The position numbers and the translations under genes were made by a program. A DNA stretch of 64,000 bases from Gonapodya prolifera JEL478 (lineage: Eukaryota > Monoblepharomycota > Monoblepharidomycetes > Monoblepharidales > Gonapodyaceae): positions 285,256 to 349,255 of the forward strand of contig KQ965764.1 in NCBI GenBank assembly GCA_001574975.1, given 5' to 3'. Shown here piece by piece: positions 15,946 through 61,130 of the stretch (within the stretch, counting starts at the first letter, position 1; every line of letters starts with the position of its first letter). The notes under the pieces were generated by a model. That model saw only the letters and a list, made by a program, of their open reading frames with translations, was not told the DNA's origin and did not search any database.

Positions 15946-18225
15946 TCAGGTTACTTTCTTTGCACTTCCCGCCTTTGCTGCCGCGTCCATCATTAAGAAC
16001 GGATTTGAGCTGATTCCTCCACCCCCTTCCTTTCTCGTCCATGTATCCGAGGCGCTCGTAGAAGTCCCAGTTCCAGATTGTACGTTAACTACTTTCCCAC
16101 CAATAGATTGACTTGTCCTCGAGTTGAGTGAGCTCATGTGACCTGCCCCTTTTGGCGTGGGCGCCCGATTCAATGGATTTACAACCTCCGTATTGAATTT
16201 CGACAAACCAGCAGCGACAGAGCCTCCCGATGCCGCTCGTCGAGCAACCCCAGTGACGGGATCAGAGAGAGCACCAGGAGATGATCTTGCTGCAGCGTTT
16301 GATCGGACAAGACCCGGGACACTTCGTTGCGACGCAGGTGCAATATTCTGACACTCTTGAGGTAGTGATTCGTTGGAACCAAAGGGATTGGACCCCGACC
16401 TGGATAATGCCGGAGATGCGGTACCCGAGGCAAACGGATTTGATGATTCTGTGCCATTGTCACGGTCAGACAACAGTACGGGATCTATTGCTCTGACAGA
16501 ACCCGTCACAGATCCCACATGACTTCCATCATCGCTAAAAGGGTCTGGCGATCCCGTGGCTAGGGCCGATCCAGCCCTGGTTTTCTCCCGAAGACCACCC
16601 ATACGTCCCCTGTTTAGTCCCGCTGCAATAGCCGCCGAAGTGATAACATCGGCTTGCGATTGTGTGAGCCCAACACGGTTGCCATAATTCCCAGAGACAG
16701 TTCCGCGGTTCGTTACTGCCGTTTGAGACGTATCTACTTCTGGCGAGAACGGGTCCACATGTGTAGGACTTGGGGTGGACAAGCCAGAGCTGTTTGGACG
16801 AGGCGGAAGCGCCGGCCTGGGTGCAGTTGGATTAGGGGTTTCGATGACGTCCTCGTCCACCATTCGGTGATTGTCAATCTCGTCCCCAGAGGCTCCAAGG
16901 AACGGATTGTCTTCTTCCTTATCTTTGAGTGAAGAGTACGCAAGGGAACCTGCAAAGGAGAACCCGCTACCAGAAACTGTCCGACGGGCAACACTACGGT
17001 CTTTCGTAGGGATGGGAGGTTTCTTTTTCCGGAGTCCCTCATATTCGCTCAGTCCTCTACGATCTCGATCTCTGGCGTCCTTAGCCTCGGGCGGAAACCC
17101 AGTGGACGATAAATGCTTCGATTGCGGCTTCAGGACATGCCGAAGAGCGCCCGAGTCCACAAAATTGCTAACAATATCAGACGCCAACTCAATAATTTCA
17201 GCGAGAAGGTTGGCGTCCAGGGCAAGAGTAACCCCAAACACAATCGCCAGATTACTCGCTGGCATCTTGTTCTTTTCAGATTGAATCGACACCTTCTGAA
17301 GATGGATGGCCAAGTGGGAGAGGACAGAGAGATTGATACGGGGAAGCTTTGATAGCGCGGAGATGAGCTGGGCTTTGAGGGTTGCAGATTCGGGAGAGAT
17401 GGCATTAAGAGTTTTTGCCAGCGACTGGGGAATAATTGGTTCCGGCACTTCATAAATGCGATCTTTCGTTAGTTCCAAGGGAGGGTGATAAGGTTGCTCA
17501 CTCACGCTCTCGCAAGTATAGTTTCAGGCATCCTGCGACCGTGTGGGGATCTGCTAGTTCAGACATTTTCGGAATATCCACATCGTCCCCTCCATCGAAC
17601 TCTGCTTTCAGTCGGTGAACGGAAGATTGAGAAGCGGAAATACGATAGAGTCCCTCTTCAGTGAGCCCTGGAGCAAACGTTTCAAGTGAGGTGGTGCCTG
17701 TCAGTTCTCCATGGGCAAAGCTCTTACCATTGTCTTCCACGTACTGTATACACCTGATAAGAACCGCCGGAAGGTCGACCTCCGCGGAAAGTCGGGATCT
17801 TTCGATGGCCAGTTGCAGTGTCACTCCAAATATCTTGCCTGCGAAGACTGGTTTTTCTTGGAGTTCTTTCCAACAAATAATTGATGATCAATATAGCATG
17901 GAGCCCAGAACGTAATCGCGGCGTTTAAGTTGCGATTCGCATCATTTCAAGGTCAGAATTCATAGGTTCGATCGAGGGGATCGTTCGCGCAATCACCTCT
18001 CTCCCGCTCTCGTTCTTCACGCTCTTTCTTCCACTTTTCGTGTGCGCGCTCTGCAGCGTCCTTCGTTTCTTTAGCGGCGTATGCGATGTTTTCTCCCGCG
18101 ACGTGTCCATAGACAACAGCTTTCTCCTTAGCTGCTGCCGCGAGCTTCCCTCCATGCTCAAGCGCAAAGGATCCGACTTCGGCAGCCCGTTCTCTAAGTT
18201 CTGCTGCTCGTTTCGTCCATGACAT
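15946..18225 (-). CDS. RhoGAP protein with N-terminal amphipathic/LEA-like helix
   Basis: RhoGAPs speed GTP hydrolysis by Rho GTPases. Three exons (17997-18225, 17506-17865, 15946-17447, all joins phase 1) give 696 residues. Residues 1-76 are a long Ala/Lys/Glu amphipathic helix with 11-mer-like spacing (KEKAVVYGHVAGENIAYAAK). Then comes the RhoGAP domain: KIFGVTLQLAIERS, the arginine-finger motif EEGLYRISASQ (Arg151), and, across the second intron, LKLYLRELPEPIIPQSLAKT. The NKMPASNLAIVFG block is also typical. The C-terminal 350 residues are Ser/Pro/Gly-rich and disordered, with repeated SNPF motifs (for example TESSNPF and SGSNPF), which resemble NPF sites bound by EH domains of endocytic proteins. 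The helix could bind membrane; target GTPase unknown. It heads a block of three Rho regulators. Confidence 0.85.
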
Positions 18226-47121: not shown

Positions 47122-49835
47122 CTACTCCAAATCGGTGCGAACAAAGTATCCGCCCTTCTCAGGCGTTGTCAACGTGCTACACGCAAGCGTGGATAATTTC
47201 ATTTTTTCAACTGTTCGCCGAGAGAAGTGGGGTCCAAACCAAACTCACCCGAATTCAATTCCTCCTGAAAATCGTCCAAGAACCTTGATTAAATCTCCTG
47301 CATTGACAGTGAGCTCATCCCTCCTTTTTCGCTTTATTGACACCTTTGCGGAAATTGTTTCAGTGGGTCGTGGTTCTTGTGGCATTGGTACGTTTACTGG
47401 GCACGCCAATCTGCAAAGAAATTTGTCAAAAGAAAACAAGCTCTTCACCTGACCAACCTACTCACAAAATCTCTTGAAGCACTGCCTCAATTACCTTAAA
47501 GCTTGGACGGTCCTCCGGTTCTGGTGCCCAGCACTCCTCCAGCAATTCCTTCAATCTCTCTGGCATCTCCACCACCATGGAGTTCAGACATGGCCGTAGG
47601 TCCCCATCAATGATTCGTGTCCAAAGACGTGCATCCGGGACATCCCCAAAAGGTCTTTCGAGAGTCCAAATCTGCAACAAGAGCGTGTTGCTCTGTGAAA
47701 ACCAGCAAGGCACATCGTGTGCACCCACCTCGTATGCTGTCATCCCCATTGCATATACATCTCCCTCTTTGCTGCTCTTGTGCTCCAGCAGCCTTTCTGG
47801 GGGCATCCACCGTGGCGTCCCCACCCTTTCGGATGGGTCCGTTCCCTTGGGAGCCGCTGCACTCTCCAGCTTGGCGTACCCAAAGTCACACACCAAGCCA
47901 CTGCCATTATCCCGAACGAGGACGTTGGAAGCTTTAAGATCAGCGTGGACTATGCCGACGCCGTGGAGATAGGACATTCCTTGGGCGACATCAAGCATCT
48001 GAGGTAGGGTGGGACGAGTTGTAAATGCGACACGTTGTTGGAGGTGAAGAGTGAACATACCAGCTTAATCCGCTGATATGTTGTCGTGGGGACGGTCCGC
48101 AAGTAAGAGAGAGCAGTTCCATGTTTCATGAATGGAGACACGATGAAAGGGAATGTGGTAGTTAAGCAGGCCCCCGAGAGCGGGAGCACGTTGTCATGTT
48201 TCAAGCTTGACCAAATCTCGATCTCAGAGGCAAAAGCCTTTAAAAGATATGGACGGAGTGTCAGTCCATCGTGGTGTTCAAGATGACGGCACAAAACTCA
48301 CGGTGTACAGGTCCCGACCCATGTCCCCACGAAATACCCGCTTCAGAGCGACTTCATTCCCCTGCCACATGCCACGGAACACTTCTCCGTATCCTCCACG
48401 GCCAATTAACTCTTGGAAAGTGACATGCTCCTCTTGGATCCATGGGGTGTCCAGTGGTTGCTGCCCGGGGGTCGCAAGGAGGTCAGCTCTGGGCCGAGGC
48501 GAGTTGCGCACGAGCGTGTGAGGCAAGAAATGCGGGGAAGGAGGTGGGGGTCGAACGACAGCTCACAAAATCTGGTGCAAATTGTTGATGATCTCCTCAG
48601 GTGTTGGTAGGGGGACGCCCATCCGGCCAATACCAGCGTCGCAGCGCCCTAACAAGGCAACAAGAGATTCCTGTGCAGTGCCTTCCTCCCTGAGTCGTTG
48701 CATTGTAAGCCCTCCAGACCAGATCTACGAGTTGCACAATAGAGCACCCGGTGTCAGGAATTATTGCCCATAAGGGAAAAACTTGCGGTCGGAAACACCT
48801 ACCTGTATCGCAATCCTTGCAAAGCTCACGATGTCGCTTACAAATGGATACGCCAGCTTGCGTTCATTGTGCATTTTGACGAGAAGGGCTTCCATAAGTT
48901 TATCGGGGTCAGTGACAAAGGAGCTCAAGGCTCCAGTGGCGCAGGATTCCCTGGCGTCGTACGCAAAGCCAAATGATGAGATAATGGCGTGCCCTTGGTC
49001 GTCGATCACGATGAGACGGGCGTGGAGGTTAGTGTGCGCAATTTTGTGGTCGTGAAGGTGGCGGATTCCTTTGGCGATTTCGATCATCTGGTGTTGTGAA
49101 AACGCCGGGTGGTCGGAGGAGGAGTGAGTCGAGTAGTCGTGGCAAGAAAAAATCGTGACGGGTTGCCCTTGTGACGACAACTCACGAGTCGAATCTTGTC
49201 ACGTGGGCCTGGTTTGAAGCGGTGCAGGTACTCGAGCAAGCTGCCGTTTCGCATCAACGGGGATATCATGAATGGCTGGCATGCATCGAAGCAGACACCG
49301 TAGAACCGGAGAATATTGGGATGAGCGGGTATTGTGGCCCAGGTGAACAACTCGCTCGCAAAGGCCTTATTAGGAAGCTTCATTTTCGAGCACATTCATC
49401 GCGGCAAAAAACGAGCCGTCATCCACTCACTGCCGCGTGGTCCAGTTGCGAGAGGATCTTGATCCCCACTTCGACATCCCGTTGCCATACCCCGCGATAC
49501 ACGTGACTGTAGCCACCGAACGCAATGTAGTCGCCAAGCGCCACGTCACGGACGTTAATATTGCCTCGCACGCCCGGCAAGAGCTCTGGCCACCTCCTCT
49601 TGCCCGCGCTCCAGTTGTTTTCGATGTCCGGGTCGCCGGTTCGTTTGAGCACGGGTGATGGGAGATCGTCCTTGTCCTTGCGTGCGTGTTGGGGTGGGCC
49701 CGAGTGCGAGATGATTGGCGTAGAGGTCTCGAAGAGGGTTGTGTCCGATGCCATGGATATGGAGATGCTCTTGGTCGTGCCGGTAGGGGCTTCTTGATCG
49801 TTGTGGGACAAGCGCGATCGCGCGGAAATGAGCAT
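47122..49835 (-). CDS. Tandem pseudokinase-kinase-SH3 protein (TKL-like)
   Basis: Nine exons (49431-49835, 49186-49377, 48803-49087, 48567-48725, 48302-48488, 48061-48237, 47466-47998, 47249-47410, 47122-47176) give about 717 residues. Domain 1 has a kinase fold (IAFGGYSHVYRGVWQRDVEV, GIKIL, KAFASELFTWATIPAHPNIL) but HRD is HTN (KIAHTNLHARLIVIDDQG) and DFG is SFG (IISSFGFAYDA): a pseudokinase. Domain 2 looks active: LIGRGGYGEVFRGMW, VALKRV, FASEIEIWSSLKHDNVLPLS, VHADLKASNVLV, CDFGYAKLE, GTPRWMPPERL. The C-terminus is a divergent SH3 (AKVSIKRKRRDELTVNAGDL, IKVLGRFSGGIEFG, GGYFVRTDLE). Exon 4 carries one base too many for the frame (AAA at 48659-48661), so either an assembly error or two separate genes is possible. 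Intron phases elsewhere are exact. Confidence 0.75.
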
Positions 49836-50005
49836 TTTTTCGATGCAGCAGTAGACTCAGATGAATGAATTCAATCCAAAGGAAGGCTCCCCGACTTGAC
49901 CACGGCAGACTGCCTGGGAACGGCCCCAACTCTTCCCGCTCCAGGACAAAGAATCTTTCCAGTCGATGTGGTCGTTCAGGCGAATGGAGTCCGCTCAAAT
50001 TTAAG

Positions 50006-50595
50006 CCCCAAGCGCTCCCCCCGTCGCCGATGCGACTGGCACCCCACACGGTCACAACGGAAGTGACATACCCCCACCATACGACGAGCTCCCACCGTCA
50101 TATGCCCAGATCGGCGGAGAGGTGAGAGATTGCTTTCGTCCCGCGAACCCCCAGGCCGGGCACTCCACGTCACTCTGACCTACTTATGACGAACAAGGCC
50201 GCGCTTCCGCTGACCCCTGGGGCGCATCTCAAACTCCACCCGCCCAAGGGGCAACCGCGGCACGCAATCTACTGCGGAGGGGATCACGTCGTCTGGTACA
50301 ATATATACAAACTAGGAGGGACCGACTCTCCCATCGAAAATTGCAGCCTCGCTCAGTTCATGGCCTCGGGGGGGCGTCTTGAGGTCATTTCCGATAGTGC
50401 AGACTCGCGGTACTCCGGGGACCAAGTGTGGACCGGGCGTTGCGGGCGGCGGAGTACGGGAAACGGAAGAACAAGATGTCTGTGGGCGGTGACGTGCCTG
50501 AGAAGGCGAAGGGTGTCGGACCGGTGGAGTTCGTGGACTGGTGCTTTGGGAGGCAGTCGTTGAAATCGAGAGGACTAGGTGGAGCTCTGGGCTGA
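50006..50595 (+). pseudogene. LRAT/NC-domain-like protein with PPxY motifs, probably decayed
   Basis: LRAT-domain proteins are thiol acyltransferases or phospholipases using an N-terminal His and a Cys in an NCEHF motif. Exon 1 ends IPPPYDELPPSYAQIGGE, with two WW-binding PPxY motifs. After an intron come ALPLTPGAHLKLHPPKGQPR and HAIYCGGDHVVWYN (the His region), NCSLAQFMASGGRLEVISDS and YSGDQV. Then the frame shifts by two bases near 50428, and DRALRAAEYGKRKNK and VEFVDWCFGRQSLKSRGL follow. In active enzymes this last block is NCEHFVxWC; here the nucleophile Cys pair is replaced by GPVEF. The frameshift and lost Cys suggest a decayed gene, though an assembly error plus a non-catalytic paralogue is possible. 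The 5' end is unresolved. Confidence 0.5.
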
Positions 50596-59739: not shown

Positions 59740-61130
59740 TCAGTTCATGTTGAGACTCATGTCCTCCCCAAACCAATAGACCATGGTGCCCCTCATCTCG
59801 AGGGATTTGTACGGGGGCCACGTTTTCTTTGCACAAAACACCTTGTGCCACCTCCAATCCACCTTTTGGCACTCGACGGAGCAGTACCTGATCATTTTGC
59901 ACTTGTTGACATTCTCCGACGTGGGCCCCACTATCTGCTCCGCTGTCATCCCCGACACGCACGTAAAGTTTCCGCACGCCTGGTATTTCGCGCTCTCGGG
60001 AGACCACTGTGTGCGGGGAAGCTTCTTGGTCGGTGTGTGGTACGCGCGGACGACGTCGGCCCACCGGCGCGCGACTTCGGACGTTTGGTGCGGTCGCTGA
60101 CGCTTCTTCTGCAATTGCATGCGGCGCATGAATTCGGGGTGCGCGGCCACAACGGCTCGGCTGGCGGTGTTTATGGGGTCCTTGCCCCGAGGAAGGAGGA
60201 ACCATTCCATCAGGTCCAATACTTGGTACTGTATGGAGGGTGGCAGACGATGACGATGATGTCAGACCGAGCATGAAAACGGTCTACATCCCCCAGATAC
60301 GCCTGCGACGGAGGAATACGCTCTGCGTGGGACAATACGCTCCGCGTGGGATCATTCGCCTCCAGCGGACAGCCTCGGTCAGCGCCTAGCGGCACTTAGG
60401 CCTCATGTTCGCTCCGCGAAAAAGCACTCGGTCAGCACTGTCGCGCTTAGGCTTCGGTGCTCAGTCTTCCGTGGTTCGCACTCCAGACCTCGCTACGCGT
60501 CTCGCCACTCCGACCTCTGGCCTCCGTTGTTCGACCCCGCACCCACGCGCTTGACCAAACGTACCAAAGTCTCTTCCTGCACGAACGGATGGTAGTCCTC
60601 GAACAGTTTCGGACCGTCGATGAGACACAGAGCGCAAGTAGAGCCGGCATGCGCGTGGCCAGACCTGCATGCAACGTGTCTGACGTCGACAAGCTCTCCA
60701 AGTCGACCGTGATCTGGAGAAATGCGAGCGACGCCGACGCTGCGCGGCACATTGCCCTCTTGCGTGGTTTTCCCGGCTGTAGCGCGCGCACCTCGTCAAT
60801 TCGCTTCACGAATGCGTCGAAGAGCAGCCACGGGATGGGGGTGGAGATGAGAAGCGAAAAGATCCGTCTGCGCTGCTGGACGGTCAGCGTGGTGTGCTCC
60901 AAGGACAACTTGTGATGCAAGGCCATGCTGCTGGTGACGCCCGTGTCTGATCCGAGTTGGCTGAAGCAGCCGCTGTCCCAGTAGACGCTCCAGCGCAAGT
61001 CGCAGTCGATGCCGTGCTTGAACTGGTCGGTGATTTCGTGCGGATTGAGGTTGGGCAGTTGGGAAAGGATATGAAAGACTTCCGGTCGCGGGGGCTCAGG
61101 CAGCGGTTTGGGATCGAGGAAACTGGCCAT
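59740..61130 (-). CDS. MYND zinc-finger protein
   Basis: The start is the ATG at 61130 (MASFLDPKPLPEPPRPEVFH). The N-terminal part is helical and unassigned (ILSQLPNLNPHEITDQFKHG, IPWLLFDAFVKRIDE). The next segment, STCALCLIDGPKLFEDYHPF, is in another frame; an intron GAG|gtgcgc ... ggagag|CTT would restore the frame. Then TTG|gtacgt opens a 336-bp intron holding two repeat types, closed at ccatacag|TAC. The last exon (59740-60228) reads YQVLDLMEWFLLPRGKD, then the MYND finger: CGNFTCVSGM, CKMIRYCSVECQKVDWRWHK, VFC. MYND fingers bind proline-rich peptides. It ends WFGEDMSLNMN. Partner unknown. Confidence 0.75.
60300..60365 (-). repeat. Tandem 19-20-bp repeat in MYND intron
   Basis: Three to four imperfect units follow each other on the gene strand: TCCCACGCGGAGCGTATTG, TCCCACGCAGAGCGTATTCC and TCCGTCGCAGGCGTATCTGG, with a more diverged one before them (GGAGGCGAATGA). 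They lie at the 3' side of the long MYND intron, next to the hairpin repeats. Confidence 0.6.
60374..60492 (-). repeat. Intronic hairpin repeat, copies B1 and B2
   Basis: Two tandem relatives of the NIPA-intron repeat. B2 (60427-60492) on the gene strand reads GCGAGGTCTGGAGTGC, ACGGAAGACTGAGCACCGAA, then hairpin AGCGC-GACA-GTGCT. B1 (60374-60404) has AGTGCC-GCTA-GGCGCT. Hairpin stems differ between copies by changes that keep pairing (G-C to G-U), and all loops are four-base GNNA. Same orientation relative to its gene and a similar distance (about 75 nt) from the 5' splice site as copy A. Confidence 0.65.

Follow-up and report, generated by a model that had tools for sequence, protein, structure and literature searches.

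The Janus kinases (JAKs) are tyrosine kinases that carry FERM and SH2 domains in front of a pseudokinase domain (JH2) and a kinase domain (JH1), and they are not known to have a C-terminal SH3 domain. In JH2 an Asn stands where the catalytic Asp would be, whereas both the catalytic-loop Asn (N678 of JAK2) and the equivalent of Asp184 (Lys-Asp pair) are retained; JH2 is needed both for suppressing and for fully activating JH1 (PMC4718504). A 2014 paper named Gcn2 and the JAKs as the sole proteins known to combine a pseudokinase and a kinase in one chain (PMC4014428). The RWD-pseudokinase-kinase architecture of Gcn2 is preserved between animals and fungi (PMC12394161; PMC4014428); its pseudokinase binds the kinase next to it and activates it, and that of mouse Gcn2 has been reported to bind neither ATP nor Mg (PMC4014428). 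The plant tandem kinases were added later, and 92 tandem kinase-pseudokinases have been counted (PMC6170490). Fungi also have the FslK kinases, a fungi-specific lineage near the tyrosine kinases for which six chytrid members have been reported (PMC3937382). Here we analyse a stretch of 64,000 nucleotides from the aquatic fungus Gonapodya prolifera JEL478 (contig KQ965764.1, positions 285,256 to 349,255; hereafter the window), in which we confirmed that one gene model encodes a dead kinase domain (PK1), a live-looking kinase domain (PK2) and an SH3-like tail.

Results

The gene occupies positions 47122..49835 of the minus strand, exactly the bounds given by the initial annotation, which had also proposed two kinase domains in tandem within one gene. 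Both statements hold: the joined exons contain no internal stop, all nine introns are of the GT-AG type with lengths of 55-98 bases, and the spliced protein, used in a protein search, is letter-identical to the deposited P0001 ('kinase-like protein', Gonapodya prolifera JEL478). Two stretches match the Pfam family PK_Tyr_Ser-Thr (whole protein, E 1.2e-72), with 82.3 bits for the PK1 half alone and 167.1 bits for PK2 alone at a cut-off of 23.1. A Pfam scan of the whole 694-aa protein with E up to 1 returned kinase-type families only and no other kind of domain, and Rfam gave 0 matches across the window. The motifs that had been assigned to the first (HTN, SFG) and the second domain (VALK, HAD-LK-N, DFG) are read at the positions below, and introns 8 and 9, the final ones of the gene, are phase 2, in keeping with what had been described for the C-terminal region. 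The features are as follows; "five proteins" refers to the family described in the next paragraph.

47122..49835, minus strand: whole gene, 10 exons, 694 aa; the ATG starts at 49835 and the stop ends at 47122
49835-49431, 49365-49186, 49087-48803, 48724-48567, 48488-48302, minus strand: exons 1-5, in order
48237-48061, 47998-47729, 47671-47466, 47410-47249, 47176-47122, minus strand: exons 6-10, in order
49551..49835, minus strand: N-terminus, aa 1-95, without a Pfam match; least conserved part, 12% invariant among the five proteins
48567..49550, minus strand: PK1, pseudokinase domain, aa 96-343, with three internal phase-0 introns; predicted kinase fold
49028..49036, minus strand: HTN replacing HRD, aa 213-215; HxN in 5/5 proteins
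48968..48976, minus strand: SFG replacing DFG, aa 233-235; 5/5 proteins
48489..48566, minus strand: junction intron from PK1 to the linker, phase 2; place and phase common to loci C50, C122 and C135
47468..48424, minus strand: PK2, kinase domain with catalytic motifs, aa 365-622; from Pfam and motifs
47939..47947, minus strand: HAD (non-RD) of HADLKASN, aa 482-484; from motif reading
47879..47887, minus strand: DFG of PK2, aa 502-504; from motif reading
47125..47361, minus strand: SH3-like tail, aa 640-694, about 55 residues; spans the phase-2 intron 47248-47177

The gene belongs to a small family from two Gonapodya isolates, comprising five proteins in which neither kinase domain is broken and one broken copy. 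The proteins compared are P0001, P0002 (locus C135), P0003, P0004 from Gonapodya sp. JEL0774, whose deposited tail ends early, and the product of locus C122 as spliced in this analysis. The G. prolifera assembly holds four loci (C34, which is the window gene, C50, C122 and C135), and no locus matching the deposited G. prolifera paralog P0003 was found in the assembly examined, which may be incomplete or differ. The broken copy, C50:55832-58417 (L039), is the closest paralog of the window gene; it has a frame change in exon 1, has lost the donor of an intron within PK2, misses part of PK2 with a frame change, and reads DAD for HAD. At C122:90312-92847 (L040), the deposited model P0121 omits the last exon as well as the N-terminus and most of PK1, although the DNA reads open throughout these parts.

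In the window protein, PK1 reads VGIK, an alpha-C Glu, HTN and SFG, and has no APE. Across the family, HRD is replaced by HTN, HAN or HCN and DFG always by SFG, and the position of the catalytic-loop Asn is taken by Leu, Val or Ile, so that the catalytic Asp, the catalytic-loop Asn and the DFG Asp, whose loss marks a pseudokinase, are gone from PK1 in 5/5 proteins. Being without a catalytic base and both metal ligands, PK1 should not phosphorylate, and its residues make conventional binding of Mg-ATP improbable. PK2 of the window protein has VALK, an alpha-C Glu, HADLKASN, DFG and PPE, and HADLKxxN and DFG are present in all five proteins.

PK1 is under purifying selection, with ratios of nonsynonymous (dN) to synonymous (dS) substitution of 0.13-0.29 depending on the pair. 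Between C34 and C50, a pair with moderate dS, dN was 0.065, dS 0.494 and the ratio 0.13 for PK1 (208 codons), 0.072, 0.345 and 0.21 for the linker plus PK2 (182 codons), and 0.097, 0.261 and 0.37 for the tail (54 codons); as C50 is broken, any bias in these ratios should be upward. Exon 1, residues 406-464, 516-554 and 624, and the last 16 residues were excluded from this comparison because C50 is broken there or because of alignment gaps or introns. The NG86 ratios for PK1 were 0.153 (C34-C122) and 0.293 (C122-C135), at a dS near 2, and those for the tail were 0.145 and 0.111, respectively; over PK1 and the tail of these two pairs dS ranged from 1.2 to 3.1, and the method yielded no dS for PK1 of C34-C135 or for PK2 of all three pairs. 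Among the five proteins, 35% of the PK1 columns and 66% of the PK2 columns are invariant. PK1 contains at beta-2/beta-3 the 10-residue invariant run WQRDVEVGIK, which is longer than expected at 35% invariance (permutation p 0.0027, in a test that ignores the clustering of conserved sites and the kinship of the rows). In trees, the five PK1s form one clade and the five PK2s another, and the branching order within both is identical, ((C34,C122),(P0003,(C135,JEL0774))), which shows that PK1 and PK2 were inherited together.

The SH3-like C-terminal domain of the initial annotation was upheld in part. The tails of P0002 (22.3 bits) and P0003 (23.7 bits) lie above the Pfam SH3_2 cut-off of 21.8 bits, whereas those of the window protein itself (13.5 bits) and of C122 (15.2 bits) lie under it. 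An alignment of the four tails spans 72 columns, and P0002 and P0003 end in GGFFPRSAL, which we take to resemble closely the usual SH3 end. In SH3 domains the proline-peptide pocket is lined by aromatics, namely the Tyr of ALYDY, the Trp of GWW and the Tyr of SNY; at the matching places, assigned by eye, none of these occurs in P0001, P0002, P0003 or C122. The best sequence matches of the tail among solved structures are two designed barrel proteins, followed by the Jouberin SH3 domain (E 0.08), and AlphaFold does not fold the tail with confidence, at a block predicted local distance difference test score (pLDDT) of 28-39. Elsewhere in the assembly, exons of a tyrosine kinase-like (TKL) kinase at C37:30303-31791 (L058) are followed by an SH3 match of 24.8 bits (cut-off 22.9). 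From its sequence, this locus may encode a kinase-SH3 protein related to the PK2-tail unit, and the fusion of a kinase with SH3 may thus be older in Gonapodya.

The AlphaFold model used was built from an 11-row set of tandem kinases and has a mean pLDDT of 66.4 and a predicted template modelling score (pTM) of 0.44, with both kinase domains mostly at 65-95. PK1 is modelled with both lobes and the main helices, at a block pLDDT mostly of 65-90 outside residues 237-274, and its activation segment (237-274) is undefined. A four-row model reached a mean pLDDT of 46.2. A 73-row alignment was left unfolded; 5/73 rows, the query included, covered PK1 and nearly all lay on PK2 alone. The VIA-align rows were mostly on PK2.

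As to its origin, PK2 has a PK_Tyr_Ser-Thr match and a serine/threonine-type catalytic loop, as fungal TKL kinases do. The tyrosine-kinase motifs DL(R/A)A(A/R)N, P(I/V)(K/R)W(T/M)APE and GxR(M/L) (PMC3937382) are absent from PK2, which reads DLKASN, TPRWMPPE and GDLRP. A 22-row tree groups PK1, PK2 and other Gonapodya TKLs together against three tyrosine kinases and one P0006 domain (support 99/96). The earlier description of the second kinase as TKL-like was right. This tree was obtained from 27 rows by removing five long branches (Gp_C16, the Agaricomycete kinase P0072, a plant kinase, TESK2 and the second domain of P0006); the 27-row tree places PK1 beside Gp_C16 with weak support (51/88) and a long-branch warning, and the trees were made without JAK rows and without the FslK set. 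A sister relationship of the PK1 and PK2 clades is neither supported nor rejected in the 22-row tree (approximately unbiased test, p 0.246). By sequence, the best solved relatives of PK1 are tyrosine kinases (EGFR family, JAK1 and BTK), and those of PK2 include CTR1, BTK, Src and B-Raf, with CTR1 the best single-kinase match and BTK and Src above B-Raf.

We also considered shared introns as proof of an internal duplication, and rejected them. Homology-based splicing was applied to eight further TKL loci of Gonapodya, and two of the resulting models have a stop. Seven of the eight loci carry one or more of the phase-0 introns found near residues 405, 464 and 554; these introns thus speak for family ancestry only. 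The assembly has at least 144 exon-level PF07714 matches, several of which may fall in one gene, and hence a large TKL-type set. It also contains an apparent pseudokinase with HTN for HRD and DFS for DFG (C16:201505-202251, L064).

The distribution of the domain order was assessed by several searches, which cover proteins of 0.55-1.75 times the query length that share short words with it, so that absence elsewhere is not proved. A four-protein profile search scored 7,998 candidates, 203 of which reached E 1e-10. Among the best 120 of these 203, only P0001-P0004 and P0121 cover at least 55% of the query in one local alignment, and none of the remaining 115 covers more than 45%. Because coverage in one local alignment misses two-kinase proteins, 174 collected proteins were scanned separately. 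Two kinase stretches were present in 15 of them, four being members of the Gonapodya family; the other 11 comprise three with a degenerate stretch followed by a complete one, five that are catalytic in both, and three that look like one domain cut in two, and the database's Pfam column lists no SH3 family for any of the 11. A search with PK1 only gave 17 proteins at 1e-5 among 1,673 candidates; four of them are family members, including the query, at E 3.5e-90 or better, and the next is a single-kinase Gonapodya protein at 4.6e-14. By these sequence comparisons, the order pseudokinase-kinase-SH3-like tail has been found so far only in Gonapodya.

The broader statement that the pseudokinase-kinase order is confined to known families and Gonapodya was rejected, because P0011, P0118 and P0125 show this order too. 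Their first kinase stretch is degenerate (HGGIKPSN, no DFG) and the second has HRD and DFG, as in the Gonapodya proteins a dead domain precedes a complete one; however, they have lost other residues, their first stretches are weak (34-60 bits), two of the three carry other attached domains, and they are about 20% identical to P0001. Judging from their names and domains, these three proteins (JGI source) are probably bacterial. P0006 and P0122, from the same source, are tandem kinases that keep the catalytic residues in the first domain as well as the second, the first domain of P0006 reading DLG; P0006 is thus not the 'Janus kinase 2' of its source label.

Among the literature matches listed (at most 20 of up to 411 per search, mostly open-access), no title or abstract opening describes the Gonapodya family. 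The available portions of the fungal and pseudokinase surveys PMC2838846, PMC3937382, PMC8778642 and PMC7586955 do not mention this domain order, and that of PMC2838846 has no occurrence of the words tandem, SH3 or pseudokinase.

Three further reading frames were seen in the window. One at 50005-50178 on the plus strand, which lies upstream of the kinase gene and runs away from it, contains PPPYDELPPSYAQ (PPxY-like). The others, both on the minus strand, encode a RhoGAP domain (15946-17523, 58 bits) and a MYND zinc finger (59740-60261, 34.4 bits).

Discussion

The window protein resembles the JAKs in that a pseudokinase precedes a kinase in one chain and in that both JH2 and PK1 have an Asn for the catalytic Asp. 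It differs in that JH2 retains the catalytic-loop Asn and the Asp184 equivalent, both of which PK1 lacks, and in that neither FERM nor SH2 was matched in the Pfam scan, the 95-residue N-terminus being without any match. The protein is thus JAK-like in order and in one residue, and not by the other features tested; the JAK-like layout of the initial annotation stands in this sense, whereas kinship with the JAKs, given the missing FERM and SH2 domains, the PK2 motifs and the 22-row tree, is not supported. With Gcn2 it shares a pseudokinase directly ahead of a kinase, in fungi, although the RWD and HisRS-like domains of Gcn2, which phosphorylates eIF2-alpha, were not matched by Pfam. The Gcn2 order already exists in fungi, and it is therefore only the order together with the SH3-like tail that is new; the earlier statement, that no described fungal protein with this exact order was known, had overlooked Gcn2. 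The plant tandem kinase-pseudokinases (WTK1/Yr15 and relatives) are likewise tandem pairs with a non-RD kinase domain, but WTK1 has the kinase first and the pseudokinase second, has no further domain, and belongs to a plant lineage (PMC6170490). Like the FslK kinases as described, PK2 lacks the tyrosine-kinase motifs and has a Pro in the third of them; however, another domain is found in 16/241 FslK, and the available text of that study mentions no tandem pseudokinase (PMC3937382).

On this evidence, the gene represents a real conserved family within Gonapodya and an independent pseudokinase-kinase protein. We propose, with a probability of about 0.5, that it is a family of TKL-type serine/threonine kinases carrying its own regulator, in which PK1 controls PK2 allosterically. 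PK1 would bind PK2, either within one chain or between the partners of a dimer, and so set its activity; we infer that it most likely keeps PK2 latent, and that binding of a partner to PK1 or to the SH3-like tail would release or reorient PK1 and leave PK2, presumed to be an active kinase, free to act. The tail would more likely serve as a docking or clamp surface than as a reader of PxxP, because the proline-peptide aromatics are absent. Non-RD kinases are generally independent of activation-loop phosphorylation; PK2 is non-RD, and a control domain in cis would therefore make sense.

That PK1 gates PK2 is a reasonable proposal and, of the readings considered, the best supported: PK1 has lost its catalytic residues in 5/5 proteins yet keeps the beta-3 Lys and the alpha-C Glu in 5/5. 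The purifying selection on PK1, its invariant run WQRDVEVGIK, the matching branching orders of PK1 and PK2, the catalytic motifs of PK2 and the precedents of Gcn2 and JAK JH2 also speak for it. Several points weigh against it. PK1 evolves faster than PK2, the model does not fix the placement of PK1 relative to PK2 (pTM 0.44), the JAK and Gcn2 comparators would point both ways on the direction of control, and what stands behind the proposed control is gene sequence.

An alternative is that PK1 serves as a bait, or as a platform on which substrates, partners or foreign molecules dock, with PK2 as the output and the activity of PK2 not directly affected by PK1. A bait role has been suggested for the plant tandem kinase-pseudokinases (PMC6170490), and the Gonapodya family does turn over in the genome, one of its four loci being broken; a bait would be expected to change fast, whereas PK1 is under purifying selection, and we consider this role unlikely. 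We give a similarly low standing to the possibility that PK1 activates PK2 instead of restraining it, as the Gcn2 pseudokinase does in the same order (PMC4014428); nothing specific argues against activation, and the comparison with Gcn2 reaches the kinase fold only.

It is improbable that PK1 is a functionless, decaying relic of a tandem duplication. Its faster change and the existence of the broken copy at C50 would fit such decay, as would the adjacent TKL domain pairs elsewhere in the genome, on one strand at about C37:109774-111982 and C83:50838-53025 (L066, L067), which by sequence may be tandem kinases or neighbouring genes. These pairs have catalytic motifs in both domains, so that a first domain without its catalytic residues is not typical of this genome. 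Moreover, the PK1 frame is open in 5/5 proteins with identical residues lost in all, dN/dS is 0.13-0.29, and PK1 is retained in two Gonapodya isolates.

That an annotator joined two adjacent genes is very improbable. The deposited C122 model P0121 (380 aa) starts inside the PK1 C-lobe, which speaks for it, and still it crosses the junction, while the deposited models P0001-P0004 span both kinase domains. The frame of the second kinase contains no ATG between the upstream stop (ending 48563) and the glycine loop. The place and phase of the junction intron are kept in four loci, at lengths of 78 (C34), 80 (C50), 64 (C122) and 94 bases (C135); if read through, the 78-base intron holds an in-frame stop and the others would shift the frame.

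Finally, a true JAK relative in fungi has next to no chance of being the explanation: the order, the Asn for the catalytic Asp, the match of PK1 to JAK1 7t6f at 2.1e-12 and the top Foldseek ranks of the JAK1 chains 7t6f and 8ewy (607 and 624 columns) recall the JAKs, but a TM-score of 0.34 with root-mean-square deviations of 22.7 and 15.8 means that the two-domain arrangement does not superpose on JAK1, whose rank we read as an effect of two kinases in one chain because the duplicated EGFR construct 9p9u ranks third, and the absent FERM and SH2 domains, the PK2 motifs and the 22-row tree also speak against it.

Returning to control of PK2 by PK1, the order is JAK-like but the parts look fungal and of TKL type, and this kind of self-regulated kinase was, as far as sequence can tell, probably invented again. 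More tentatively, the invention may have taken a specific form, in which a TKL-derived pseudokinase with a JAK-like Asp-to-Asn change would allosterically gate a non-RD serine/threonine kinase and a degenerate SH3 domain would act as a clamp. If true, the family would add another independent case of a pseudokinase-kinase protein, from a separate lineage of early-diverging fungi, made of TKL-type parts and under selection. It would raise the question of whether pseudokinases acting in cis work through common surfaces, and of whether their effect is restraint or activation. If the independent invention is true, Gonapodya would offer a natural test case for asking which contacts between pseudokinase and kinase arise repeatedly by convergence.
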